From a virus, in IMG/VR virus record IMGVR_UViG_3300045116_000113, positions 1 to 33,069 of that record: a DNA stretch of 33,069 nucleotides; one strand, given 5' to 3'. Position numbers and translations under genes: made by a program. The notes beneath the pieces were generated by a model. The model did no database searches. It was not told the DNA's origin and saw only the letters and a list, made by a program, of their open reading frames with translations. This document shows, piece after piece, positions 2,669-25,405 of this stretch (positions are counted from its first letter, which is position 1; the number at the start of each line of letters is the position of its first letter).

Positions 2669-3831
2669 ACCGGATCGACGTTGATGGAGGCGTGCCGATC
2701 TTGTCGTGGGCGACGGATCTGGAGCCGGGCGCGCTGGCGCAGGCGCAGAACCTCGCGCGGCTGCCGTTCGCGTTCCGGAACGTGTCGCTGATGCCGGACG
2801 CGCATCAGGGCTACGGCATGCCGATAGGCGGCGTGTTGGCGGCCGTAGGGGTAGTGGTGCCGAACGCCGTAGGCGTTGACATCGGGTGCGGCATGCTGGC
2901 GGCGCGGACGACGTTGCGCGCGGAGGAGTTGCCGCGCGAGCGACTCGCGGCCGTGCTAGGCGAGGTCCGGAAGCGTGTGCCGGTCGGGTTCGCGAAGCAC
3001 GCGGAGCCGTGCGAATGGCACGATGTGACGCGCCTCTTAGATGGACTCGACTGGGACAAGTTGCTGATCGTATCGGCCGGGTGGGATGCGGTGCCCGCTC
3101 AGCTCGGGACGCTCGGCGGCGGCAACCACTTCATCGAGATACAAGCCGACGATGCGGGCGCGGTGTGGGTGATGATCCACAGCGGTTCGCGGAACGTCGG
3201 CAAGCAGGTGGCCGACTACTACAACCGGCAGGCACAGGCGCTGAACGAGCGGTACTGGTCGCGCGTGCCGTCGGACTGGGATCTGGCGTTCATCCCGCTC
3301 GATGAGCAAGACGGGCAGACCTACATTCAGGAGATGAACTTCTGCGTGCGGTTCGCGCTCGCCAACCGGCAACGCATGGCGGCCGTTGTCTTGGCGGCGC
3401 TCGGCGTCGAGGCGGCCGAGGTGATCAACATCGCGCACAACTACGCCGCCGAGGAGGTGCACGACGGCAAGAAGGTGTGGGTGCACCGGAAGGGCGCGAC
3501 GCTGGCCGAAGACAGGCTGGCGGGGATCATTCCCGGCTCGCAGGGTAGCGCCAGCTACATCGTGCGCGGGCGCGGCGAGCGGCAGTCGTTCCGGTCGTGC
3601 TCACACGGGGCCGGGCGGCGCATGGGGCGGAAGCAGGCGCAGCGGACGTTGAGCCTTGCCGATGAACAGGCGCGACTCGATGCGCAAGGGATCCTCCATT
3701 CCGTCCGGCACGCTTCGGATCTGGACGAAGCCCCGAGCGCCTACAAGGACATCGATGCCGTGATGGCAAGTCAGCGCGACCTCGTTGAGACGGTCGTGCG
3801 GTTGCGCCCGCTGGCGGTGGTGAAGGGATAG
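2665..3831 (+). CDS. rtcB: RtcB-type RNA ligase
   Basis: RtcB joins RNA 2',3'-cyclic phosphate (or 3'-phosphate) ends to 5'-OH ends using Mn2+ and GTP, repairing or splicing tRNAs. The 388-residue protein, near the usual 400, shows the family signatures in order: DAHQGYGMPIGGV, DIGCGM (metal-binding Asp72 and Cys75), GGGNHFIE, HSGSRNVG, HNYA, HRKGAT, PGSQG and SCSHGAGR. His314 of SHGAGR is the residue expected to be guanylylated (His337 in E. coli as I recall). The start uses an ATGA overlap. No archease was seen. In a phage it probably repairs tRNAs cut by host nucleases; maturation of the RNA encoded upstream is a speculative alternative. Confidence 0.95.
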   Translation: MNRIDVDGGVPILSWATDLEPGALAQAQNLARLPFAFRNVSLMPDAHQGYGMPIGGVLAAVGVVVPNAVGVDIGCGMLAARTTLRAEELPRERLAAVLGEVRKRVPVGFAKHAEPCEWHDVTRLLDGLDWDKLLIVSAGWDAVPAQLGTLGGGNHFIEIQADDAGAVWVMIHSGSRNVGKQVADYYNRQAQALNERYWSRVPSDWDLAFIPLDEQDGQTYIQEMNFCVRFALANRQRMAAVVLAALGVEAAEVINIAHNYAAEEVHDGKKVWVHRKGATLAEDRLAGIIPGSQGSASYIVRGRGERQSFRSCSHGAGRRMGRKQAQRTLSLADEQARLDAQGILHSVRHASDLDEAPSAYKDIDAVMASQRDLVETVVRLRPLAVVKG

Positions 3832-10742: not shown

Positions 10743-10952
10743 ATGGCGAATGACCACAAGCAACTTCGGAAGGCGTACCCGAAGGATCAGCTGTTGATGG
10801 ACGGCGTTTTCGACGATGAGACGCTACGGAAGATCCATGAAGCGCAGAGCGGCGACCACTTCGAGGCCGTTGACCTTGATATCGAAACGGAATATTGCTG
10901 CCCGTCATGCGGATATGAATGGAGCGGCAATCCGAAGCCGGGAAGGTCATGA
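10743..10952 (+). CDS. Small acidic protein with a CPSC knuckle
   Basis: This 69-residue protein ends with YCCPSCGYEWSGNPKPG, half of a zinc ribbon, which could bind metal as a dimer. The N-terminus is MANDHKQLRKAY. Its stop overlaps the start of the cytosine methyltransferase, so it may be translationally coupled to the modification cassette. The ribosome binding site is weak (gtggagtcgg). Function is unknown. Confidence 0.55.
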   Translation: MANDHKQLRKAYPKDQLLMDGVFDDETLRKIHEAQSGDHFEAVDLDIETEYCCPSCGYEWSGNPKPGRS

Positions 10953-12652
10953 CGATGGTGAAGAAGAAGCCGACCGCGCAACCGGTGTTCGCCTTCGACG
11001 TGGGATCCGATGTGGTTGATGCTGAACTGGCCGGACACGGCGTCCGGCCGGTCGCAGCCGTTGAGGTTAGCGACGTGAAGATACCTGAAGTCGAGATCCG
11101 GCGTGGCGTCGTCGACCAGTCTCAGTGGTTCGCTGGGACGAGGCCAAGCTCAGGCGCGCGGAGGAAGACGATTGATGCGTCCCAACCGGCGCCGACGGTA
11201 ATGGCGGGAGGCTTGGATTCAGTTAACACGGGGCAGTACCATGTCGCTGTTGATGACGATGAGGCCGTGTTAGATCCGGATAAGCCGCGCTACCGCATCC
11301 CGTTGATGACGGAGATCGCGGCGTGGGAGAAGAACGGCCTCGTCGTCGTGTCGACGTTTTCTGGCTGCGGTGGGTCGTGCCTCGGGTTCAAGATGGCTGG
11401 CTATCACGTGCTGTGGGCGAACGAGTTCATCCCGGCAGCGCAGGAGACGTACCGCGCGAACCACCCGGAGACGCACCTGTCGACCGAGGACATTCGGCAG
11501 GTCACGGGAGAGAAGATCCGCGCTGTCATTGGGAACGTTGAAGTGGATGTCTTCGAGGGTAGCCCGCCGTGCGCTTCGTTCAGCACGGCTGGGAAGACGT
11601 CGAAGGGCTGGGGCAAGGAACGTAAGTACTCGGATACCAAGCAGCGGACTGATGACCTGTTCGAGCAGTACGTGCGGCTCGTCGACGAGCTACGCCCACG
11701 GGCGTTCGTCGCGGAAAACGTCGCTGGCATGGTTAAGGGCGTGTCGAAGGGCTACTTCAAGCGGTACCTGATGATGTTCCGCGACCTACCCTATAACGTT
11801 GAGGCGCGCGTGCTTGACGCGCAGTGGCTCGGCGTCCCACAGCGACGGAAGCGGCTGATCTTCGTCGGCGTTCGGAAGGACGTTGGGCGTCCAGCGTGGC
11901 CGACGAAGCTGCCCTATCGCTATTCGGTCCGTGAAGCGATTCCTTGGATACGTGACGCTAGGTCGGGGGCGTACGGACCAGCTGATTATTCGACGATAGC
12001 AAACGCGAATCTTAGCGCTGACCGTCCGTGTCCGACCGTCATGACGAACGGTAGTAAGGAGCGACTCTATAGACATGAGGTCGTTGTTGACGGCCTGACT
12101 TGTCAGTCTAGTGGGGAGGATGGATCTACTACGTCTGGAAAGATGGTGGAGATCGGTATGGGGGCGTCTGAGGACTGCTGTGGGTGTGTCGAAAATGATG
12201 AGCGCGTGGTCGGCATCGAGCACCAGTCTGGTTACGACCGAAAACGCGGGAAGGTCCAAGACGTTGATGACCCGAGTGAGACTATCGTCTCAGGCCGCCC
12301 GGTCGTCGTGTTGGTGGAGCGGGAAAGCGCCCTCGGCAACGCCGTCGGGCGTGAGTGGGACAAGCTGGACGTCGGCGGGCAGAGTGATAAGTACCTGAAC
12401 CTGATCCGGCCTGATGCTGACCAGCCGTGCCCGACCGTGACGCAGCTCGGCGGGACGTCGGCCGCGTCGGTAACGCACCCCTATGAGCGGCGTAAGTTTT
12501 CCATCGCGGAGCTGCGCCGGATCTGCGGCTTCCCTGACGACTTCATCCTGACTGGCACGTACTCACAGCAGTGGGAACGCCTCGGACGCGCGGTGCCTCC
12601 ACCGATGATGCGTGCTATCGCCGAGGCGCTAGAAGGAGTGCTGAAGCCTTGA
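10949..12652 (+). CDS. C5-cytosine DNA methyltransferase, candidate carboxymethyltransferase
   Basis: The 567-residue enzyme has the C5-methyltransferase motifs in order: I STFSGCGGS near 135-143, IV EGSPPCASF with catalytic Cys208, VI AENVAGM with Glu256, VIII VPQRRKRLIFVGVR, and X LGRAVPPPMM near 545-554. Motif X is normally GNA/S; here Asn is replaced by Arg547. In the engineered CpG enzyme M.MpeI, changing this Asn to Lys or Arg is reported, as I recall, to allow use of carboxy-SAM. Genes for carboxy-SAM synthesis follow immediately. The protein is longer than usual, with about 130 residues before motif I and four PTV/TIV-type segments. The middle (about 11930-12260) is visibly less GC-rich, perhaps an exchanged target-recognition domain. 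The alternative is a normal 5-methylcytosine enzyme. Confidence 0.93.
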   Translation: MTMVKKKPTAQPVFAFDVGSDVVDAELAGHGVRPVAAVEVSDVKIPEVEIRRGVVDQSQWFAGTRPSSGARRKTIDASQPAPTVMAGGLDSVNTGQYHVAVDDDEAVLDPDKPRYRIPLMTEIAAWEKNGLVVVSTFSGCGGSCLGFKMAGYHVLWANEFIPAAQETYRANHPETHLSTEDIRQVTGEKIRAVIGNVEVDVFEGSPPCASFSTAGKTSKGWGKERKYSDTKQRTDDLFEQYVRLVDELRPRAFVAENVAGMVKGVSKGYFKRYLMMFRDLPYNVEARVLDAQWLGVPQRRKRLIFVGVRKDVGRPAWPTKLPYRYSVREAIPWIRDARSGAYGPADYSTIANANLSADRPCPTVMTNGSKERLYRHEVVVDGLTCQSSGEDGSTTSGKMVEIGMGASEDCCGCVENDERVVGIEHQSGYDRKRGKVQDVDDPSETIVSGRPVVVLVERESALGNAVGREWDKLDVGGQSDKYLNLIRPDADQPCPTVTQLGGTSAASVTHPYERRKFSIAELRRICGFPDDFILTGTYSQQWERLGRAVPPPMMRAIAEALEGVLKP

Positions 12653-12678
12653 ATGCTTCGAGGAGGTATATAAGGCCG

Positions 12679-13131
12679 TTGATTATCGGAGAGGCTCCCT
12701 CGCGTGTCGGCGATCCGCGTCGGCCGATTACGGGTCGCTGCGGGGAGAAGTTGGCGATGATTAGCTGTCTTTCTGGTAGGGCGTTCGCGCGGGTGTTCGC
12801 GCGGGCGAACGTCCTTGAGGTGTGGCCTGGGCCGAGTGGGAGGAAGGGCGCGGCGTTTCCACTGGCGCTCGCGCGCGCGCAGGCTGTGCGCCTACGTCGG
12901 AGGTTCTACCGAGGGCGTGTCGTGTTGCTACTTGGTCATCGTGTGGCTGCGGCGTTCGGCGTGCGCGCGTCCTACCTAACGCGCGTGGTCGTCGGTGGGG
13001 CGGACGTCTTCGTGCTGCCGCACCCGTCCGGCGTTAACCGGTGGTATAACGACGCCGCGAACGTGGCGCGGCTCGGGCGGCTCCTGCGTGGATTCGTGGC
13101 TCATGAGAAGGAGATAGGCGATGGTGAATGA
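12679..13131 (+). CDS. Uracil-DNA-glycosylase-superfamily protein
   Basis: The readable core begins LIIGEAPSRVGDP with PITGRCGEKLA, and near the C-terminus has FVLPHPSGVNRWYND. These correspond to the GEAPG motif and HPS motif of the UDG superfamily (family 4/5 style). The protein is short, 150 residues from TTG 12679 (AGGAGG 13 bases upstream); TTG 12649 is the alternative start. GEAP is followed by S rather than G, so the base recognised may differ from uracil. It lies between the cytosine methyltransferase and CmoA genes. It could police or process modified or deaminated cytosine, or it may have lost glycosylase activity. Confidence 0.7.
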   Translation: MIIGEAPSRVGDPRRPITGRCGEKLAMISCLSGRAFARVFARANVLEVWPGPSGRKGAAFPLALARAQAVRLRRRFYRGRVVLLLGHRVAAAFGVRASYLTRVVVGGADVFVLPHPSGVNRWYNDAANVARLGRLLRGFVAHEKEIGDGE

Positions 13132-13849
13132 GGGCGACGCGGTGGTGGATAGGACGATGCCGACGGGGCCGTGGAAGTTCGATCCGGAGGTGACGGCGGT
13201 CTTCGACGACATGCTTGAGCGGTCGATCCCGCAGTACGACGTTATGCGGAGGGCGATCTTTGATACCGGCCGCGCGTTCGTCACGTCGAAGACGGACGTG
13301 GTAGACCTCGGCTGCTCGCGCGGCGGCGCGCTGGCCGACTTCGTGAAGCACTTCGGAGCGCACAATCGGTTCATCGGTGTCGACGTGAGTGAGCCGATGC
13401 TGGCGGCGTCGCGGGAGCGGTTCAAGCACTACATTGATGCTGGCCTCGCGGATATCCTCAACCTGGACTTACGCGTGGCCTATCCTCCGGTGAAGGCGTC
13501 GTTGACGCTCGCAGTCTTCGCGCTCCAGTTCATTCCAATCGAGCATCGCCAGCGGGTCGTGCAGGAGATGTATGACCACACCGTGGACGGTGGCGCCGTC
13601 ATCGTCGCGGAGAAGGTGCTCGGCGCAACGGCGCGGATCGACCGGACACTCGTTGCGAACTATCACGCGATGAAGCAGGAGCACGGCTATTCGCAGGAGG
13701 CCATCGAGCGCAAGCGCCTGTCACTTGAGGGCGTGCTCGTCCCGGTGACGGCCGCGTGGAACGTTGAACTGCTGCACCAGGCAGGGTTCCGGCAGGTGGA
13801 CTGCTTCTGGGCGTGGATGAACTTCAGGGCGTTCGTGGCGATCCGCTAG
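13121..13849 (+). CDS. cmoA: CmoA, carboxy-S-adenosyl-L-methionine synthase
   Basis: CmoA converts SAM and prephenate to carboxy-SAM, releasing phenylpyruvate and CO2-derived water chemistry products. This 242-residue protein (E. coli CmoA is 247) aligns with it nearly end to end from memory: GPWKFDPEVTAVFDDMLERS, DLGCSRGGAL, LQFIPIEHRQ, GGAVIVAEK, HGYSQEAIERKRLSLEGVL and LHQAGF. Lys198-Arg199 fall at the same numbers as in E. coli, where Arg199 contacts the extra carboxylate as I recall. In bacteria the product is used by CmoB for tRNA cmo5U34; no CmoB is encoded here. The start follows aaggagatag and overlaps the UDG-like gene by 11 bases. A plain methyltransferase is the alternative but fits worse. 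Confidence 0.88.
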   Translation: MVNEGDAVVDRTMPTGPWKFDPEVTAVFDDMLERSIPQYDVMRRAIFDTGRAFVTSKTDVVDLGCSRGGALADFVKHFGAHNRFIGVDVSEPMLAASRERFKHYIDAGLADILNLDLRVAYPPVKASLTLAVFALQFIPIEHRQRVVQEMYDHTVDGGAVIVAEKVLGATARIDRTLVANYHAMKQEHGYSQEAIERKRLSLEGVLVPVTAAWNVELLHQAGFRQVDCFWAWMNFRAFVAIR

Positions 13850-13858
13850 GTGGCGATT

Positions 13859-14689
13859 ATGCCGAATCTCTACGCACTCGTAGATGGTCGGCCTAGAACA
13901 GTCGTCGACGTCGCTGGAGTTAAGGTCGGCGGCAACGACGTCGTCGTGATGGCGGGGCCGTGCGCGGTTGAAAGTGAGCGGATGATCTTCGACGTAGCGC
14001 AGGCTGTGGCGCGATCCGGCGCCTGCGTGCTGCGTGGAGGCGCCTTTAAGCCGCGAACGTCGCCGTATTCCTTCCAGGGGCTTGGTGTCGAGGCGCTGCG
14101 GCTCCTTCGCGCCGCAGCAGACGCGAACGGCTTAAAGGTCGTGTCTGAGATCATGGACGTGTCATACCTGCCGGACATGGAACGGTACGTGGACCTGCTC
14201 CAGATCGGCGCACGCAACATGCAGAACTTCTCGATGCTGCGTGAGATCGGCCGGAGGACGCGCCTGCCGGTGCTCTTGAAGCGTGGCATCTCGGCGACGG
14301 TTGATGAGTGGCTCGCGGCGTCTGAATACGTGCTCGCCGGTGGAAACGCCGCGGTGATTCTCTGCGAGCGCGGCGTGCGTGGATTTGAGCCGCGTGAGCG
14401 GAACATGCTCGACGTGACGGCGATCCCTGTCCTTCGTGAGCTGACGCATCTTCCAGTGATCGTCGACCCGAGCCACGCGACCGGCCGCAGGTCGCTCGTG
14501 TCGCCGGTCGCGGCCGCTGCTATCGCGGCTGGAGCGGACGGCCTGCTCGTCGAGGTGCATGATGATCCGACAGTGGCGCTGAGCGACGGTGAGCAGTCGT
14601 TGGATCCTGCGTGCTTTGAGGCGATGATGAATCGCGTGTGGTCTATCGGATCGGTCCTTGGGAGGTCCGTGCATGCGAAGCCTGCGTGA
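13859..14689 (+). CDS. DAHP synthase (AroF/AroG-like, class I beta)
   Basis: The enzyme condenses phosphoenolpyruvate and erythrose 4-phosphate to DAHP, the first step to chorismate. Family blocks are [68 protein letters not shown] and [20 protein letters not shown]. At 276 residues it is a bare catalytic barrel without the ferredoxin-like or fused chorismate mutase regulatory domain, so it may escape feedback control. A GTG at 13850 is an alternative start. It is followed directly by chorismate mutase, the two activities being fused in B. subtilis. Here it most likely boosts prephenate for CmoA. The related KDO8P synthase is less likely because of the neighbour. Confidence 0.9.
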
Positions 14690-14939
14690 ATGCCGGAGAG
14701 AAGTTGACGCCGTCGATGCAGCCATCGTCGTCCTCTTAGAAAAGCGCGCTACGCTCGCGAAGGAGGCGCTGGCTATTAGGAAGTCGCTCGGTAGGCCTGG
14801 CCGCGACCTGGCGCGAGAGCGTCAACTCCTCTCAGCTGTCGGGGGTATGTTCGCTGGCGTGCTCATGAAGTCCGCTCGTCGGCGTATCTATCGGACGGTT
14901 CTGGCGGAGATGCGAGCCGCGCAGCGCGTGGAAGACTAG
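14673..14939 (+). CDS. aroQ: AroQ-type chorismate mutase
   Basis: Chorismate mutase rearranges chorismate to prephenate. The 88-residue protein is a short all-helical AroQ domain: [44 protein letters not shown]. Aligned by eye with the E. coli domain, Arg5, Arg25, Arg36 (in place of Lys), Asp45, Arg48 and Glu49 occupy active-site positions. No prephenate dehydratase or dehydrogenase domain is attached, so prephenate would accumulate. It starts behind ggagg with 7-base spacing and overlaps the DAHP synthase stop. Prephenate is the co-substrate of the CmoA encoded two genes upstream. Confidence 0.85.
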
Positions 14940-14949
14940 GAGCGAGCTA

Positions 14950-15924
14950 GTGAGAATTAAGCCCTATCCGTCGTGGGTGCCGCCACCGAGAGAGGAACAC
15001 GTCCGCGTGGCAAGAGAGATCCTGCGCTTTATGAATGAGCCGGTGCAGTGCAAGCTGCTTAATGAAGCGTGCTGGAGCGCCTCGCCGTCGTGGCGCCGTC
15101 CCATCGAAGAGCGGTTTAAGCATTCTGAAGCCCTTGGTAAGAAGATGGGCGACGGCATTAGGTATACCAAGGAGAACCTGCGGCATGCCGCGCGAGACGG
15201 CATCGGCGGCCTATGCTACGGTGGGGCCGGGCTACCGTGCGTGGTGTTCCTCCACGAGTGGGTCGATCCGGAGTTGATCAACGTCGGGTGCCGGTACGAG
15301 ATTGTGGTGACGGACGAGATGCGGTCGTGCGCCATAGATGAGATGACGCGGCGATGGCACGCGCTGCACGCTCGCGTCCGGCCGCCGCGTCTCTTTGAGG
15401 CATACGTGTCGCAGTGGGCGGTGCGGCTGGACTTTATGGCGCGGTGGCCAAAGATCGTTATCGAGCCGTCGAATGAGCATCGTGCGGACCTTCCTGCAAT
15501 CGACGACCTCCGCTTCAATATCGGGAGCCGGATGTACTTCGTAGACGTGGCGACGCGGAACAAGAACGGCGCCTTCGGCGGCCTTGAGAAGTCCGTGGGT
15601 GGACAGTGCGCTAACTTCCACCTGCTCTGCGACTACGAGTATGACGGGTCGCTGCTTTCACGCGTCTTCGTCGTCGGGTGGTGCCTGCATCCTCAGTTCT
15701 CTCGTGGAGTGCCTGACGCGCTTCAGACGCAGAGCCTTGACCGGCTGATCGTGCAGCTGAACATGGAAGCGAGCGGCCTATCTATCGATATCCTGCGCCG
15801 TGCGGAGGCACTTGACCGAGAGAGGCGGATCCGGAAGATTTATGAGGCTGGTCACGACATCCCGCACTTTACGCCGCGACAACGCGTGAAGCATCCAGAT
15901 GCAATGGAGTTCCGGTTTGACTAG
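14950..15924 (+). CDS. Unknown protein in the modification cassette
   Basis: This 324-residue protein starts at GTG 14950 behind aggag (7-base spacing). I recognise no family. Notable segments are VFLHEWVDPELINVGCRYEIVV (middle), LRFNIGSRMYFVDVATRNKNGAFGG (about residues 190-215) and LLSRVFVVGWCLHPQF. The FVDVATRNK strand is reminiscent of a PD-(D/E)XK core but lacks the exact D/E-x-K. It sits between chorismate mutase and an MT-A70 methyltransferase and overlaps the latter. It could be a nuclease, a further base-modifying enzyme or an accessory protein. Codon use is less GC-biased than in the replication genes, as for its cassette neighbours. Confidence 0.7.
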   Translation: MRIKPYPSWVPPPREEHVRVAREILRFMNEPVQCKLLNEACWSASPSWRRPIEERFKHSEALGKKMGDGIRYTKENLRHAARDGIGGLCYGGAGLPCVVFLHEWVDPELINVGCRYEIVVTDEMRSCAIDEMTRRWHALHARVRPPRLFEAYVSQWAVRLDFMARWPKIVIEPSNEHRADLPAIDDLRFNIGSRMYFVDVATRNKNGAFGGLEKSVGGQCANFHLLCDYEYDGSLLSRVFVVGWCLHPQFSRGVPDALQTQSLDRLIVQLNMEASGLSIDILRRAEALDRERRIRKIYEAGHDIPHFTPRQRVKHPDAMEFRFD

Positions 15925-16477
15925 CCAGGATCGCTACGGTGTTATCGTCGCGGACCCGCCGTGGCACTACCGCCAGACTCCGCGCAGCTCTGCAGCGCGC
16001 CACTACCGGACGATGACGGTAGAGCAGCTAACGGCGTTGCCGGTATCCGCGCTCGTCGCGGAGCATGCGGTGTTGTTCCTATGGGCAACGTGGCCGAACC
16101 TTCCGGAAGCATTGAGTGTTGTAAGTGCATGGGGGTTTACCTACGTGTCAGGCTTCCCGTGGGTTAAGACGTCACGGGATCCGGAGATGACGTTGTTCGG
16201 TCTGAAGGCGCGCGTGGCGCTCGGTGTTGGATGGTGGGTACGCGGTGTTAGTGAGCCGATCCTGATCTGTCGTCGCGGCCGGGTAAGGATCCCGAAGAAT
16301 CCGTATGCGGGCTTGCTTGCGAAGCGGCTAGAGCATTCACGCAAGCCTGAGTCTATCTACGCGATGGCAGAGCGGTTTAACGGACCGTATCTGGAATTGT
16401 TCGCGCGGCGCCGCCGGGCCGGGTGGGATGCATTCGGGAATGAGGTTGAGGGTTCAGTTACGCTGGAGGGTGGATGA
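15899..16477 (+). CDS. MT-A70-family N6-adenine methyltransferase
   Basis: This is a SAM-dependent adenine-N6 methyltransferase. It has the catalytic ADPPWHY motif (Asp19-Pro-Pro-Trp), HYRTMTVEQLTALP, the SAM-site segment GVSEPILICRRG, and the C-terminal signature HSRKPESIYAMAERFNGPYLELFAR...GWDAFGNE typical of phage members. From ATG 15899 it is 192 residues; a TTG at 15917 with GGAG at 8-base spacing is an alternative start. It overlaps the unknown gene before it and the resolvase gene after it (ATGA). It probably methylates phage DNA adenines. Because carboxy-SAM is likely made in the same operon, use of that cofactor is a possibility without motif evidence. Confidence 0.9.
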   Translation: MQWSSGLTSQDRYGVIVADPPWHYRQTPRSSAARHYRTMTVEQLTALPVSALVAEHAVLFLWATWPNLPEALSVVSAWGFTYVSGFPWVKTSRDPEMTLFGLKARVALGVGWWVRGVSEPILICRRGRVRIPKNPYAGLLAKRLEHSRKPESIYAMAERFNGPYLELFARRRRAGWDAFGNEVEGSVTLEGG

Positions 16478-19323: not shown

Positions 19324-19497
19324 CTAGGGAACCGGGGGGCCGGGGGCGGCCGGGAGACGGAATCGGGGCGGGGCCGGGGGTGGCCGGGCAGGATAAGCCC
19401 AACCTGCCAGACTGCCGCCGCCGTTTGGGAGAGCAGCGGCCGGAAGTGCGCCGGGCGGCGCACGGCCCGGCTCCGCTCCGAGCTGCGAGGAGGAGTG

Positions 19498-20487
19498 ATG
19501 CGCGTTGCGGTCACGGGGGCATCGGGGTCGTTGGGGCGGCAGCTGATCCGTCGGTTGGCGCAGAGCGGGGCGGAACGGATCGTGGCCTTCAGCCGCGATG
19601 AGCAGCGCCGGGCGCAGCTGCTAGCCGACTTCGGATGGCATCCGGGCGTGCGCGTCTTTGCCGGAGACGTTCGCGACCGCGAGCGACTGCGGCACATCTT
19701 CGCCGGATGCGACACGGTCATTCATGCGGCGGCAAGGAAGGTCGTGTCGGCGCTTCCGGATGAGGCGCGCGAGATGCTGCTGACGAACGTCGAAGGCACG
19801 CTCAACGTCATCGACGCGGCGCAGGCTGCGCGCGCCGGGAAGCTGCTGTTCATCTCGTCGGACAAGGCCGTGGAACCGCACAATGTGTACGGCGTCTCGA
19901 AGGCGATGGCTGAGCACCTCATCATCAACGAGAATGCGCGCACGTACCCCAGCGGGCTTCGGATGGCCGTGTTGCGCTACGGGAACGTGCTCGCGTCGCG
20001 CGGGTCCGTTGTGCAGGTGTGGCGGGAGCGGCTAGCCCGTGGGTTGCGTCTCGGCGTCAGCGACGAGCGCATGACCCGCTTCTGGATGACGCTCGGGCAG
20101 TGCGTTGACTTCGTGCTGGGGGCGCTCGCGGACCTGCGCGGTGGCGAGGTCTTTGTGCCGTATGCGCTACCGGCGGCGCCCATCACGGTGCTGGCGCAGG
20201 CGCTCGGCGCCGAGTCGTGGGACGTGACCGGCATCCGGCCGGGCGGCGAGAAGTTACACGAGTCGCTGCTGTCGGCTGCGGAAGTGACACGCGCTCGGGT
20301 GCGTAATCTGTTCTGGGTCGTGCCGCCGTACCAGCACGATCACATGTGGGACAACGCGCCGTGGATCGGTAGCCCGGCGGCGCCAGACTTCTGCTACGCC
20401 AGCGGCCTCGGGCCGTTCCTAGACGCGGAGGGGATGCGGGCATTGCTAGCGCGCGTCGATGCGGAGGAGGTGGCGTGGAACGCATAG
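19498..20487 (+). CDS. UDP-GlcNAc 4,6-dehydratase-like (PseB/CapD-type) epimerase/dehydratase
   Basis: The 329-residue SDR-fold protein starts RVAVTGASGSLGRQLIRRL (NAD(P)-binding TGxxGxxG). It continues with FAGDVRDRERL, CDTVIHAAARKVV, NVEGTLNVIDAA, then FISSDKAVEPHNVYGVSKAMAE and VLRYGNVLASRGSVV. SSDKA...Y..SK and the GNV block are signatures of PseB-like inverting 4,6-dehydratases, the first step of pseudaminic-type sugars. The C-terminus has RPGGEKLHESLLS as in the family. The ATG follows gaggaggag. It opens a seven-gene overlapping sugar cluster. Confidence 0.85.
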   Translation: MRVAVTGASGSLGRQLIRRLAQSGAERIVAFSRDEQRRAQLLADFGWHPGVRVFAGDVRDRERLRHIFAGCDTVIHAAARKVVSALPDEAREMLLTNVEGTLNVIDAAQAARAGKLLFISSDKAVEPHNVYGVSKAMAEHLIINENARTYPSGLRMAVLRYGNVLASRGSVVQVWRERLARGLRLGVSDERMTRFWMTLGQCVDFVLGALADLRGGEVFVPYALPAAPITVLAQALGAESWDVTGIRPGGEKLHESLLSAAEVTRARVRNLFWVVPPYQHDHMWDNAPWIGSPAAPDFCYASGLGPFLDAEGMRALLARVDAEEVAWNA

Positions 20488-21218
20488 CAGCCGTCGTTCA
20501 GGCGCGCATGGGGTCGTCGCGGCTCCCCGGCAAGAGCTGCATGCCGATAGCCGGGGCGCCCATGTTGGAGCACGTGCTCCGGCGCGCGCTGGCCGTACCG
20601 GGCGTCGCGGCCGTCGTTCTGGCGACGTCGGTCAATGAGCGGGATGCGCCGTTGGCCGAGTTGGCGTGGCGCCTCGGGTGCGGTGTGATCCGGGGCAGCG
20701 AGCATGACGTGCTCGGCCGGTTCGCCGCCGCGCAGCAGGCGTTGCGCGTCGAGCGCGTGATGCGGATCACGGGCGACTGTCCCCTGCTATGCGTGGACGT
20801 CTGCGAGGCGACGTTGCGCGCCGCGTTGGAGTCGGGCTACGACTTCGTGACAAACGATACGGACCAGAGCGGCTACCCGGACGGGACCGACTGTGAGGTG
20901 ATCACGGCCTGGGCGCTGGCGCAGGCGGACCGCTATGCGACGACGGCCTCGGATCGCGAGCACGTGACGCGGTGGATTCGGCGGCATGTGCCGTCGCGCG
21001 TTGCGATGGCGCCGGAAGGATCGCGGTGTCCGTTGGCGTGGAAGTGGAGCGTGGATGACGGCGCGGATCTTGCTCGCGTTCGCCGCATCTTCGGCGCCTT
21101 ACGCGGGTCGGGCGGCTATACTTTAGGCAGCGCGGCGGACGCTTGCCGCCGCGTCGAACAGGAGGACAGCCATGCGTACACTGATCATCGCGGAGACGGG
21201 CTGCACGCACGAGCGTGA
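20475..21218 (+). CDS. SpsF-like cytidylyltransferase-family protein
   Basis: The protein (247 residues from GTG 20475, ribosome binding site ggaggagg) starts ERIAAVVQARMGSSRLPGKSC, the nucleotide-binding signature of SpsF/NeuA-like nucleotidyltransferases. RGSEHDVLGRF, RITGDCPLL, TNDTDQSGYPDGTDCEV and DREHVTRWIRRH follow. Relatives activate nonulosonic acids with CMP or act in spore-coat polysaccharide synthesis. It is placed before a NeuB-like synthase and overlaps it by 47 bases. The terminal 15 residues, read over the next gene, are probably not conserved. Confidence 0.85.
   Translation: MERIAAVVQARMGSSRLPGKSCMPIAGAPMLEHVLRRALAVPGVAAVVLATSVNERDAPLAELAWRLGCGVIRGSEHDVLGRFAAAQQALRVERVMRITGDCPLLCVDVCEATLRAALESGYDFVTNDTDQSGYPDGTDCEVITAWALAQADRYATTASDREHVTRWIRRHVPSRVAMAPEGSRCPLAWKWSVDDGADLARVRRIFGALRGSGGYTLGSAADACRRVEQEDSHAYTDHRGDGLHARA
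21117..21122 (+). promoter_or_regulatory. Possible internal -10-like box (TATACT)
   Basis: GGCTATACTTTAG is an AT-rich island near the end of the SpsF-like gene, about 50 bases before the NeuB-like start. It resembles GGCTATAATA before the portal gene. It could give internal transcription of the sugar cluster. The evidence is only sequence resemblance. Confidence 0.25.
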
Positions 21219-22014
21219 CCTGAATGCGTTGCGGGCGCTGGTGTCGCTCGTAGCGGACTGCGGGTGTGATGTCCTGAAGACGCAATGGACGAGCGACCCG
21301 GATGCGATGTGCGCCCGGCGCGACGCTCCAGACTATCGGCCGTACTACGAGTGGCTGCGGTTCCCGCTGCCGTGGCACGGGGAACTGGCCGCCCTCTGCG
21401 CTAGCCGGGGCTTGCGCTACGCGACGACGGTCTATCTGCCCGAGGACGTCGCGGCTGTAGACCCGTTCGTGTCGCTCTACAAGGTGGCGGCGTTCGAGGC
21501 CGGGGCCGACGATCTCCTTGCGGCTTACTGGGACGTGATGTCGCGCAACGATAAGCAGCTGTTCATCAGCGTGTCGATGGGCCGGGCGTGGGATCCGTCG
21601 GCGGCCGTGCCGCCGGAGTTCGCCGCGCGGGTCGGGGCGCTGCGCTGCGTGTCGGCCTATCCGACACCGGCTGACCAGCTCCAGTTGTCGACGATCCGGG
21701 CGCAGGGATTCGTCGGGCTGTCCGACCACACGGCGCCCGAGATGACGGATACCGGGGCGCTGGCCGTGGCTGCTGGGGCGACGGTCGTCGAGCGGCACGT
21801 CAGGTTGGAGTCTTGCCGCCAGACCAACCCGGACTTCGCCGTGGCGATGGGCGCGCACCAGTTTAGCGACTACGTGGCGCGCATCCGCCGGGCGGAGGCG
21901 GCGATGGGCGAACCGGAAGCTACGGAGGCGCAGCCGTCCGAAGTACCGATGATGCCGTTCCGGGCCGCCCCCAAGCGGGCGCGGGCGATGCGGCGTACGA
22001 CGGTGGAAGAATGA
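21172..22014 (+). CDS. NeuB/SpsE-like nonulosonic acid synthase, without SAF domain
   Basis: NeuB-family enzymes condense phosphoenolpyruvate with an N-acetyl-hexosamine to a nine-carbon sialic-type acid. The 280-residue product shows LIIAETGCTHERDLN at the N-terminus (an altered IAEIGxNHxGD motif), CDVLKTQ, RGLRYATTVY, YKVAAFE, LFISVSMG, RCVSAYPTPADQLQL, GFVGLSDHT and ATVVERHV. These mark the TIM-barrel catalytic domain. The C-terminal antifreeze-like SAF domain is absent and replaced by a short charged tail, so substrate handling may differ. The start follows aggaggacagcc. Confidence 0.85.
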   Translation: MRTLIIAETGCTHERDLNALRALVSLVADCGCDVLKTQWTSDPDAMCARRDAPDYRPYYEWLRFPLPWHGELAALCASRGLRYATTVYLPEDVAAVDPFVSLYKVAAFEAGADDLLAAYWDVMSRNDKQLFISVSMGRAWDPSAAVPPEFAARVGALRCVSAYPTPADQLQLSTIRAQGFVGLSDHTAPEMTDTGALAVAAGATVVERHVRLESCRQTNPDFAVAMGAHQFSDYVARIRRAEAAMGEPEATEAQPSEVPMMPFRAAPKRARAMRRTTVEE

Positions 22015-22862
22015 CGTCGAGGCGTTATTGCGACCGCAGCGACGTCCCTCGCGAGGAGTGGGACGGCTACGTGGCAGCGCACCGGGACGGCTGGGTATGG
22101 CAGCTGAGCGATTGGCTCGACTACCTAGCTGCCTGGGGGCGGCGAGACTTGAGCACGGCGACGGTTGAAGGCGGACGGATACTGGGCATCTGTCCGGAGT
22201 TTGCGCCGCCGTATGATGACGATCCGCTACCCGCGCCGCTCGGGGACGCGAAGCCGAGCGCCACGCTCCATCGGGGCCAGCCGCAGCGCGCCGTGACGCC
22301 GCTGGGTTTCCGGACGCACGTTGTAGACCTACGGCATACGGATGCTGAGCTGTGGCGCGGACTTCGGCGGTCCTATCACTCGCTCATCCACCGGGCGCAG
22401 CACCAGTACGTAACTGCCGACATCACGCCGTCGACGTTGTGTCGGCTCTTTGTTTCGCAACCCGAGTTGCCGCAGATTCCGGAGGCGGCATGGGCGTGCT
22501 TGTGTCGGCTGTGGGAAGCGCAGCGGCTCTGGATCCTCGGTGCGTGGACGCACGAGCGGAGGCTAGCCGGGGCTATCGCGATCTACCGGTGGAAGGGCTG
22601 GGCGTACTACGGACACGGGCGGTCCGTCGAGCCGAACGTGAACCACCTGCTGCACTGGGATGCGATGCGTCGGCTACGCGACGGAGGTTGGGCGCACTAC
22701 TACGAGGTCGGATGGGAGGCGCGGCCCGAGGACGACGCCAAGGCGCAGGCTATTGCCTTCCACAAGGCCGGGTTCGGCGGCGAGTCATGGTGGGTGCCGG
22801 TGTTCACAAACCGGATGGAGGAGGGGCGCGCTGATGTGGGAGCAATCGCAGCGGTGTCATGA
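22011..22862 (+). CDS. FemAB/GNAT-like acyl- or aminoacyltransferase
   Basis: The 283-residue protein has the layout of FemAB-like (BioF2/CelD-type) transferases. An N-terminal YVAAHRDGWVWQLSDWLDYLAAWG is followed by LRRSYHSLIHRAQHQYVT in the middle. Then come ILGAWTHERRLAGAIAIYRWKGWAYYGHGRS, NHLLHWDAMRRLRDGG and the C-terminal AIAFHKAGFGGESWWVPVF. Such enzymes transfer acyl or aminoacyl groups to amines on glycans or peptides. In this cluster it probably decorates an amino-sugar. It overlaps both neighbours. Confidence 0.8.
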   Translation: MTSRRYCDRSDVPREEWDGYVAAHRDGWVWQLSDWLDYLAAWGRRDLSTATVEGGRILGICPEFAPPYDDDPLPAPLGDAKPSATLHRGQPQRAVTPLGFRTHVVDLRHTDAELWRGLRRSYHSLIHRAQHQYVTADITPSTLCRLFVSQPELPQIPEAAWACLCRLWEAQRLWILGAWTHERRLAGAIAIYRWKGWAYYGHGRSVEPNVNHLLHWDAMRRLRDGGWAHYYEVGWEARPEDDAKAQAIAFHKAGFGGESWWVPVFTNRMEEGRADVGAIAAVS

Positions 22863-24093
22863 CCGGGCCGTGGTCATTCCGGGCCGGTCGCTCACGCGGT
22901 CCAAGGCGCCGGGGCGGTACTACCCGGTCGGCTCGGGGCCACTCTACGCCGTCGGCGGGCACGGCGCGATGATTGAGACGGTTGACGGCACGTCGATGAT
23001 CGACATGGTGTGCGCGCTCGGGGCGATCAGTCTCGGCTACGGCGCGCGGCCGATCCGGGCATCGCGCGAGGTGGCGCGCGGGTGGGTCTACTCGCTGCCG
23101 AGTCCGCTGGAGGCGGAGGCGGCTGAGCGGTTGCTGCGCGTGTGCGCGCCGTGGGCGTCACGCTGCCGGTTCGTCAAGACCGGTAGTGAGGCGCTACAGG
23201 CAGCCGTGATGATTGCGCGGGCGTGGACGCGGCGGCCCGCCGTCCTCGTGGCTGATAGCGCCTACCATGGCTGGCATGACTGGATGGCAGCCAGTTATAA
23301 CGGGCTGGGCCGCGTCAGCGGTTCGCAGATGTTCCGGTGGGGCGCCGATGACGTGTGGCCGAACGGCGTGCCGTGCGCCTATACGCAAGGGATCGCCGTC
23401 TACAAGTACGGCGACCTCGATGATCTCCTGGCGGCGGTGGCGCGGATCGGTGAGAAGAACGTGGCCGCCGTGCTGGTAGAACCGGCGCGCTGGCGCGCGA
23501 CGACGTTGGGGCAGATGGTGGACGTCCGCGCGTGGTGTAGCGAGCGCGGCGCACTCATGATCCTCGACGAGATGATCTACGGCGGCCGGTGGCGGAAGGG
23601 CGGCGGGGCAGAGTACTTCGGCGTCACGCCGGACCTCGCGTGTTTTGGGAAGGCCATCGCCAACGGAGCGCCCATCGCGTGCGTGGTCGGCAACGATCCG
23701 CTCGACGCGCACGGCCAGCAAGTATCCGGCACCTATAGCGGAGACGCAGCGTCACTCGCGGCCGTGGATGACACGCTGGCCGTCTACGAGAGCGAGCCGG
23801 TGATTGAGCGGCTCTGGGCCGTCGGCGAGCATCTGGCGCGCGGCTTGTGGAAGCTCGCGGATGCGTTCAACGATGACGCGGGTGAAGTGCGCGTTGAGTG
23901 CGAGGGCGCCTTCGTTCACCAGCGTATGCGGTTCACGGACCCGGACCTCGGGCGGCGGTTCTCGGCGCAGATGGCGGCACGCAGTGTGCTCTGGCATCCG
24001 GAGTGCGTGAACGTCTCGTATGCGCACACGAAGGAACACGTGGATGCCGTGCTGCGGTGCGCGCAGGAGGCGTTCGAGGAGATCAAGACATGA
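22834..24093 (+). CDS. Class III PLP aminotransferase (glutamate-1-semialdehyde aminomutase-like)
   Basis: The 419-residue PLP enzyme has MIDMVCALGAISLGYG, VKTGSEALQAAVMIARAWT, YHGWHDWMAASY, AAVLVEPARW, LMILDEMIYGGRW (Asp245, cofactor-binding) and CFGKAIANGAPIACVVG (Lys273, Schiff base). Then SGTYSGDAASLAAVDDTL. This is the glutamate-1-semialdehyde aminomutase-like branch often used in bacterial surface-sugar clusters to aminate keto-sugars. The ATG at 22834 lies behind ggaggagg, although the spacing is long; it overlaps the FemAB-like gene by 29 bases. A role in heme synthesis is unlikely in this context. Confidence 0.88.
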   Translation: MWEQSQRCHDRAVVIPGRSLTRSKAPGRYYPVGSGPLYAVGGHGAMIETVDGTSMIDMVCALGAISLGYGARPIRASREVARGWVYSLPSPLEAEAAERLLRVCAPWASRCRFVKTGSEALQAAVMIARAWTRRPAVLVADSAYHGWHDWMAASYNGLGRVSGSQMFRWGADDVWPNGVPCAYTQGIAVYKYGDLDDLLAAVARIGEKNVAAVLVEPARWRATTLGQMVDVRAWCSERGALMILDEMIYGGRWRKGGGAEYFGVTPDLACFGKAIANGAPIACVVGNDPLDAHGQQVSGTYSGDAASLAAVDDTLAVYESEPVIERLWAVGEHLARGLWKLADAFNDDAGEVRVECEGAFVHQRMRFTDPDLGRRFSAQMAARSVLWHPECVNVSYAHTKEHVDAVLRCAQEAFEEIKT

Positions 24094-24962
24094 GCCGCGT
24101 CAAGCAGCTCTGCTTCGGGACGGCCAAGGTCGGAATGCCGTGGTACGGCCTCGGCTCAGTGTCGCGCCCGAACGTTCGCGAGCGGATGAGCCTCGTACGC
24201 ATGGCCGTAGACGTCGGGATCCCGTGGCTCGATACCGGGTCCGCCTACGGCGACGCCGAGCACTACATCGAAGCCGGAGCCGTGAGCCTACGGGACGTGC
24301 GCGTGGTGACGAAGTTGGCGCCGCACTTCGCGGCGCAGGCGATGCGCTACGTCGAATGGCTCCATCCGGACGCCGCGCTGCTCCACAATCCATCGGAGGC
24401 GCAGCTGGCAGATGCGGGCTTCATGGAGGAGTGGAAGGACGTGTGCGCCAACGTACCGGCGCGGGCCGGGGCGTCGGTCTACGATCCGGTCGAGGTCGAT
24501 GCTGTGAGCCGGGCACGGCTCACGGTCGTGCAGGCGCCGTTCTCGCTACTGGATACACGGAGCCGTGTCGCCTTGAAGTGCGCATCGCTGGACGGGCTGA
24601 TGACGTTCGCCCGCTGCCCGTTCGCGCAGGGTATTCTGACGAACGGTGAGTATCGGGAAAGCGGCGACCCGGCAGACGATACGGCGGCCGACGTCGCCGC
24701 GCGGTTCTACGGGCGCATCTTGGAGCCGACGTGCCGCCACTACGGGGTTACGCCGGTTGAAGCGGCGCTGTGGTATGCGCTGGATGAGAGTGGCGCCGAC
24801 TACGTGGTGTTCGGGGCCGGGAGCCTCGCGCATCTGGAAGAAGTGGTTGCGGCGGCGGACCGAGTGCCGCTGGACGGGTGGGGGCCGTGCAAGGCCGAGT
24901 TGGAAGCGGGCGCGGCAGGCACTCCGACAGTTGCGTTCGGGTCACTGTGGAGGGCGCGATGA
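24090..24962 (+). CDS. Aldo/keto reductase-like oxidoreductase
   Basis: The 290-residue barrel enzyme starts VKQLCFGTAKVGMPWYGLG, followed by GIPWLDTGSAYGDAEHYI (catalytic Asp and Tyr of the AKR tetrad), VRVVTKLAPHF (Lys), LHPDAALLHNP (HN in the His position), VVQAPFSLLD and ARCPFAQGIL. AKR proteins of this kind accompany nonulosonate and spore-coat sugar genes together with NeuB/SpsE homologues. It overlaps the aminotransferase and GNAT genes by ATGA. The substrate is presumably a keto-sugar of the same pathway. Confidence 0.82.
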   Translation: MSRVKQLCFGTAKVGMPWYGLGSVSRPNVRERMSLVRMAVDVGIPWLDTGSAYGDAEHYIEAGAVSLRDVRVVTKLAPHFAAQAMRYVEWLHPDAALLHNPSEAQLADAGFMEEWKDVCANVPARAGASVYDPVEVDAVSRARLTVVQAPFSLLDTRSRVALKCASLDGLMTFARCPFAQGILTNGEYRESGDPADDTAADVAARFYGRILEPTCRHYGVTPVEAALWYALDESGADYVVFGAGSLAHLEEVVAAADRVPLDGWGPCKAELEAGAAGTPTVAFGSLWRAR

Positions 24963-25405
24963 TCACGTTGCGCCGGGCGTCCTATGACGAAGCAGAACTG
25001 ATCCGGGAGTGGCGGAACCATCCCGGCGCGCGGGCGATGTCGTTGTCGACGCGCGTCATCGGAGCGCGCGAGCACAGACGATGGTGGGAAGTCCATGGGT
25101 GCGATGTCTGGATCGTATCGGTCGGAGGCCCGGCCGGATACTGGCGCGCTGACGGGGTCGGAGACGAGGCGGCGGTGTCCGTCCTGCTCTGCCCGGCCCA
25201 GCAGGGCAAGGGGCTGGCGGCGCAGGTCATCCGCCTCGGGACGCGCAAGGCGCTGAGGTGTTACCGGCGCTGCCGCGCGGAGATCCGCATCGATAACTGC
25301 GCTAGCATGCGCGCCTTCCTTCGGGCGGGCTACCGTTGGGTGGGGGCGAGCCGTCGCGGGCGCTTCTGGATGGTGACGCTTGAAGCGAGGAGGAAGTCAT
25401 GTTGA
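24959..25405 (+). CDS. GNAT N-acetyltransferase (PseH-like)
   Basis: The 148-residue protein reads ITLRRASYDEAELIREWRNHPGAR, then AAVSVLLCPAQQGKGLAAQVIRLGTRKAL, the Q/RxxGxG/A acetyl-CoA loop. IDNCASMRAFLRAGYRWVG follows, the final GNAT strand-helix. The order and length fit PseH/RimJ-like acetyltransferases that acetylate amino-sugars in pseudaminic or related pathways. It is the last enzyme gene of the sugar cluster. Confidence 0.85.
   Translation: MITLRRASYDEAELIREWRNHPGARAMSLSTRVIGAREHRRWWEVHGCDVWIVSVGGPAGYWRADGVGDEAAVSVLLCPAQQGKGLAAQVIRLGTRKALRCYRRCRAEIRIDNCASMRAFLRAGYRWVGASRRGRFWMVTLEARRKSC

Follow-up and report, generated by a model that had tools for sequence, protein, structure and literature searches.

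A putative phage operon for DNA cytosine carboxymethylation that carries prephenate-making genes

Gene content of the locus

The window, i.e., the whole stretch of 33,069 nts that was analysed, is identical to the IMG/VR record IMGVR_UViG_3300045116_000113 and is probably a fragment. Between positions 10919 and 14939, it carries a run of genes that lie on one strand (+) and abut or overlap, with an even GC content across the module. These genes encode a putative cytosine C5-carboxymethyltransferase homologous to CmoX (10919–12652, 577 aa), a protein resembling the uracil-DNA glycosylase (UDG) superfamily (12571–13131), a CmoA homologue and putative carboxy-SAM (Cx-SAM) synthase (13121–13849), a type I-beta DAHP synthase consisting of the bare barrel (13850–14689), and a monofunctional AroQ chorismate mutase (14673–14939, in an ORF opening with TTG at 14658 and with ATG at 14673). 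The DAHP synthase ORF abuts the CmoA stop codon and its end is overlapped by the chorismate mutase ORF.

The UDG-like protein, encoded between CmoX and CmoA, was recognized by PF03167 (E 1e-5), and its true start is probably located after the CmoX stop codon. The next gene in the operon (14950–15924, +) encodes a 324-aa protein matching no Pfam, NCBIfam or PHROG model, and it is uncertain whether it belongs to the system. Elsewhere, the window encodes an RtcB-type RNA ligase (2674–3831) and a sugar-nonulosonate-type cluster (19495–25405) comprising a PseB-like dehydratase, a CTP transferase, NeuB, a 283-aa protein, a class-III aminotransferase, an aldo/keto reductase and a GNAT protein.

The CmoA homologue

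The preliminary description presented the product of the ORF 13121–13849 (+) as a full-length CmoA homologue of the same length as the E. coli protein. Judged from its sequence, it is a real full-length CmoA homologue, with the correction that it counts 242 aa versus 247 in E. coli. The top NCBIfam model is TIGR00740 (CmoA; 160 bits, E 7e-47), which covers residues 16–241, i.e., nearly the full length. The next-ranked other methyltransferase family reaches 30 bits, generic methyltransferase families do not exceed this value, and hence none outscores CmoA. PHROG 4752 matches with 240 bits, and the nearest PDB relatives by sequence are the CmoA/YecO structures 1im8, 4gek and 4iwn (E 1e-31 to 1e-27). 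The score of 160 bits falls below the NCBI curated cut-off of 193 bits on TIGR00740, a value set for the bacterial equivalog. However, the biochemically proven CmoA of Synechococcus phage S-B43 scores 116 bits, lower than the homologue described here, and because an assayed enzyme also falls outside, this cut-off does not define the CmoA family.

The suggested structural comparison was made with an AlphaFold2 model based on 34 viral sequences (pLDDT 91). Its nearest structures are the CmoA proteins of E. coli (4gek) and H. influenzae (1im8), with a Z-score of 28.6, but CysG/BelI methyltransferases follow within 1 Z (27.7), which amounts to a tie. The fold alone was consequently rejected as a proof of CmoA identity, which is decided by sequence and context.

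The residues listed as contacting the cofactor in CmoA (PMC3663124), Y39, D62, G64, S66, D89, D117, F137, E164 and R199, are all found at equivalent columns, and the equivalents of N90 and N132 are both Val. As had been noticed, Lys198 and Arg199 have kept their E. coli numbering, and the role attributed to Arg199 as the carboxylate contact agrees with a published salt bridge (PMC3663124). In an alignment of 120 phage CmoA homologues, Lys198 is kept in all, while column 199 counts 65 Arg, 33 Glu and 12 Ala. The S-B43 enzyme itself has Glu in this column. Arg199 is therefore non-diagnostic and was rejected as a proof of Cx-SAM binding. Its variation next to an invariant Lys198 suggests that carboxylate binding may differ between groups of phage CmoA. 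By homology, the protein of the window would make Cx-SAM from SAM and prephenate.

A CmoX homologue encoded upstream of CmoA

The gene 10919–12652, directly upstream of the CmoA module, encodes a protein of the C5-methyltransferase family (PF00145, E 8e-57), with the catalytic Cys218 within an SPPC motif. The Asn of motif X is replaced by Arg557 (codon 12587–12589), which aligns with the column of HhaI Asn304 and SpCmoX Arg350. A motif X Arg is the hallmark of CmoX, the cytosine C5-carboxymethyltransferase of phages that was described in December 2025 (PDB 8YF3; PMC12783734). The chemistry of CmoA and CmoX was shown in that report with the proteins of phage S-B43, and 8yf3 is the structure of its CmoX with Cx-SAM. 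This structure is the best PDB match of the window protein by sequence and ranks first by fold with the predicted model (Z 36.0, versus 31.8 for the next entry), in which the core is well folded while the N-terminus (residues 1–117) and an insert (346–465) have low confidence.

The same residue was scored among the viral relatives of CmoX. A first count by alignment gave 86 proteins with Arg and a linked CmoA, 3 with Arg apparently without CmoA, and 6 with Asn without CmoA. In the three apparent exceptions, CmoA was detected by a better profile search. Among the scorable rows, with 4 further rows gapped at this column left unscored, a motif X Arg thus goes with a linked CmoA in 89/89 cases and an Asn with the lack of CmoA in 6/6. 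These features suggest that the protein is a CmoX homologue using Cx-SAM on DNA cytosine. General PF00145 and dcm models also match it, as would be expected if it were an ordinary SAM-dependent C5-methyltransferase with CmoA as unrelated cargo. Nevertheless, the Arg in place of the motif X Asn and a Cx-SAM enzyme as the nearest solved structure make this highly improbable, all the more as wild-type SpCmoX takes only Cx-SAM and its R350N variant takes neither donor (PMC12783734).

The preliminary description noted the absence of CmoB, and indeed none was found in the 33-kb record. It proposed that carboxy-SAM has another consumer or feeds the CmoB of the host. The first proposal holds, since a CmoX-type C5-methyltransferase, missed at the time, is encoded in the same operon; the second was dropped as not needed once CmoX had been found. 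The earlier reading is in this sense partly supported. Feeding host CmoB would tune tRNA wobble modification and the translation of phage codons, an idea to which the homology with bacterial CmoA and the RtcB RNA ligase gene lend some weight. It is very improbable given that a Cx-SAM-type DNA enzyme shares the operon with CmoA, that the CmoX Arg tracks CmoA perfectly among the relatives, that CmoB was not found in the record and that the window contains no tRNA genes. The orphan CmoA is instead explained by the known 5-carboxymethylcytosine system. As phage CmoA without CmoB, and its DNA partner, were already reported and explained (PMC12783734), the initial finding as given is accounted for.

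DAHP synthase and chorismate mutase

DAHP synthase is the first enzyme of the shikimate pathway. Chorismate mutase converts chorismate into prephenate, the co-substrate of CmoA. The DAHP synthase of the window scores 374 bits on TIGR01361, versus a cut-off of 268, and has retained the metal ligands C38, H209, E235 and D246. Its best PDB match is the Aeropyrum enzyme 1vs1 (276 aa), which is about the same length. As in 1vs1, the start lies only ~16 residues ahead of the barrel, which indicates an enzyme without a regulatory domain. The chorismate mutase scores 50 bits on PF01817 (CM_2), versus a gathering cut-off of 27, and the active-site equivalents R11, R28, R39 (Lys in E. coli), D48, R51 and E52 are kept. 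It does not reach the cut-offs of the NCBIfam subfamilies, and divergence is seen in its C-terminal part.

Distribution among related loci

Relatives of CmoA and CmoX were collected from scans giving the best 80 matches each, yielding 305 loci including the window (216 non-redundant; 2.67 Mb). A locus resembling Bacteroides DNA (L004) was excluded, and two broad alignments (A1 and A2) were set aside as too diverse. Among the matches listed, chorismate mutase is encoded in 13 of the 164 non-redundant loci with both CmoA and CmoX, a share of 8%, which is no population estimate because of the best-80 scans, and in none of the 52 loci where one of the two is missing. No other chorismate mutase was found in the 2.67 Mb collected. 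Most phages with CmoA and CmoX have no detectable chorismate mutase. The difference between the two groups of loci is modest (Fisher p about 0.025) and adjacency weighs more: the gene overlaps CmoX or CmoA, or is separated from one of them by no more than ~15 bases, in 12 of the 13 loci, the 13th being the window, where only DAHP synthase intervenes between CmoA and chorismate mutase. The domain was confirmed by Pfam in the loci checked. A control scan with DnaB helicase gave 8 loci, none with chorismate mutase, and is too small for a strong control. The UDG-like protein also has homologues in 13 of the 164 loci, among the matches listed.

The order of the genes varies. Chorismate mutase follows CmoX-CmoA in L056, precedes CmoX-CmoA in L089, L094, L097, L148 and L182, stands between ParB and CmoX-CmoA in L028, and precedes CmoX-ligase-CmoA in L151, L064, L233 and L265. 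In L170, the one other locus with both chorismate mutase and DAHP synthase, the order is CmoX-UDG-ligase-CmoA-chorismate mutase-DAHP synthase and differs from that of the window. On a CmoX tree (FastTree, 147 rows), at least 10 changes in the presence of chorismate mutase are required, in which gains are not separable from losses. The differing gene orders point to repeated recruitment.

In 2.9 million viral contigs, five relatives of the phage DAHP synthase were detected; one of them, L170, is a CmoA-CmoX locus. When CmoA or DAHP synthase was used as a single query protein, the viral scans gave no matches. Many DAHP synthase matches labelled as phage came from wastewater or faecal contigs without annotation, which are probably of bacterial origin, and were rejected. 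The only sequences in which DAHP synthase was found together with CmoA are the window, L170 and the cultured Aeromonas phage HJ05, where a DAHP synthase of type I-alpha is encoded three genes away from CmoA. No C5-methyltransferase (PF00145) was found in the whole 79-kb genome of HJ05. In this phage (L008, 1032–2621 and 2645–3382), the gene just upstream of CmoA encodes a ParB-like protein whose methyltransferase-like domain is weak and which could be a different user of Cx-SAM.

DAHP synthase is a common additional metabolic gene of T-even phages, many of which carry it with no known link to CmoA. Hence, it constitutes the weaker half of the argument and chorismate mutase the stronger. Together with a 9.3-kb viral contig in which chorismate mutase adjoins DAHP synthase (L171, 1398–2358) and in which neither CmoA nor a C5-methyltransferase was found, the T-even phages could suggest that the two enzymes serve a general supply of aromatic amino acids or a takeover of host metabolism, rather than CmoA. 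This is unlikely, however, considering that CmoX or CmoA is the immediate neighbour of chorismate mutase in 12 of the 13 loci, that its recruitment seems to have been repeated, and that no prephenate dehydratase or dehydrogenase domain was found in the chorismate mutase-bearing CmoA-CmoX loci.

Proposed function

Taken together, the genes from 10919 to 14939 very probably form an operon for the carboxymethylation of phage DNA that includes a supply of the precursor. DAHP synthase, in which the lack of a feedback domain would imply insensitivity to feedback, would direct more carbon into the shikimate pathway of the host. The chorismate made by the host would be converted into prephenate by the phage chorismate mutase, and CmoA would combine prephenate with SAM into Cx-SAM. 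CmoX, with Arg557 in place of Asn, would then transfer the carboxymethyl group onto C5 of cytosine in the phage DNA, giving 5-carboxymethylcytosine, which probably guards against host restriction and may be a handle for further modification. In short, the virus probably attaches carboxymethyl groups to its own DNA and provides the necessary ingredients itself.

The final base may differ from 5-carboxymethylcytosine if an enzyme encoded beyond the fragment, or of an unrecognized kind, acts on the carboxymethyl group in a further step, which may be an amidation of the carboxyl. A CmoY-type ligase is found in 66 of the 164 related loci, among the matches listed, and L010, the locus of the nearest CmoX relative, encodes one between CmoX and the UDG-like gene. 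The record is a 33-kb fragment. On the other hand, no Asn_synthase domain (PF00733) was found in the window, although this place is occupied by one in both L010 and L170. The CmoY-type AMP-forming ligase is not universal in the published CmoA-CmoX-CmoY set (PMC12783734). Such a further step is a serious possibility, somewhat short of an even chance; it is compatible with the carboxymethylation operon and extends it.

Directly downstream of the operon, a gene encodes an MT-A70-family DNA adenine methyltransferase (15899–16477, +; PF05063, E 6e-27). It is much less likely that this enzyme also uses Cx-SAM, leading to N6-carboxymethyladenine; a published search gave no candidates for N6-carboxymethyltransferases (PMC12783734).

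More generally, it is likely that carboxymethylating phages have repeatedly taken host-like prephenate-making genes into the CmoA-CmoX operon, i.e., chorismate mutase, in some cases accompanied by a DAHP synthase without regulatory domain, which would imply that prephenate supply is limiting and selectable. The report on CmoX called for an investigation of prephenate availability for phage CmoA, and its text mentions neither chorismate mutase nor DAHP synthase (PMC12783734). Among the open papers in PMC, none was found that joins chorismate mutase, phage and CmoA in the sense of prephenate supply. The new part is therefore the succession of CmoA, DAHP synthase and chorismate mutase, of which no description was found. 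The presence of prephenate-making genes in some phages suggests an answer to the question of prephenate availability and a connection between the aromatic metabolism of the host and the modification of phage DNA that lends itself to a direct test. These genes could also provide a practical enzyme set for cellular Cx-SAM production, as well as a genomic marker that helps to distinguish loci for DNA carboxymethyltransferases from those of ordinary methyltransferases.

Comparison with known systems

The operon is most similar to the CmoA-CmoX-CmoY system of phage S-B43, with which it shares a CmoA homologue, a CmoX in which both the Cys of SPPC and the Arg of motif X are present, and a phage operon; no CmoB was found in the 33-kb fragment. 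It differs by the addition of DAHP synthase and chorismate mutase, by having no CmoY in this fragment, and by a CmoX of 577 aa versus about 372, with a long N-terminal extension and a central insert. Streptomyces phage TurkishDelight (L007) has in common with the window ParB-like genes, a CmoX (54% identical) and CmoA, with the difference that it has a glutamine-amidotransferase-type ligase, while DAHP synthase and chorismate mutase were not found there. Compared with the CmoA-CmoB pair of E. coli, which forms cmo5U34 in tRNA, the Cx-SAM synthase with Lys198/Arg199 and most of the cofactor contacts are retained, whereas Asn90 and Asn132 are each replaced by Val, CmoB was not found in the record and the likely acceptor is cytosine in DNA. 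Finally, in the engineered M.MpeI N374K, a basic residue in place of the motif X Asn likewise allows Cx-SAM to be accepted (PMC12783734), while the enzyme of the window is natural, carries an Arg and is accompanied by its own putative Cx-SAM synthase.
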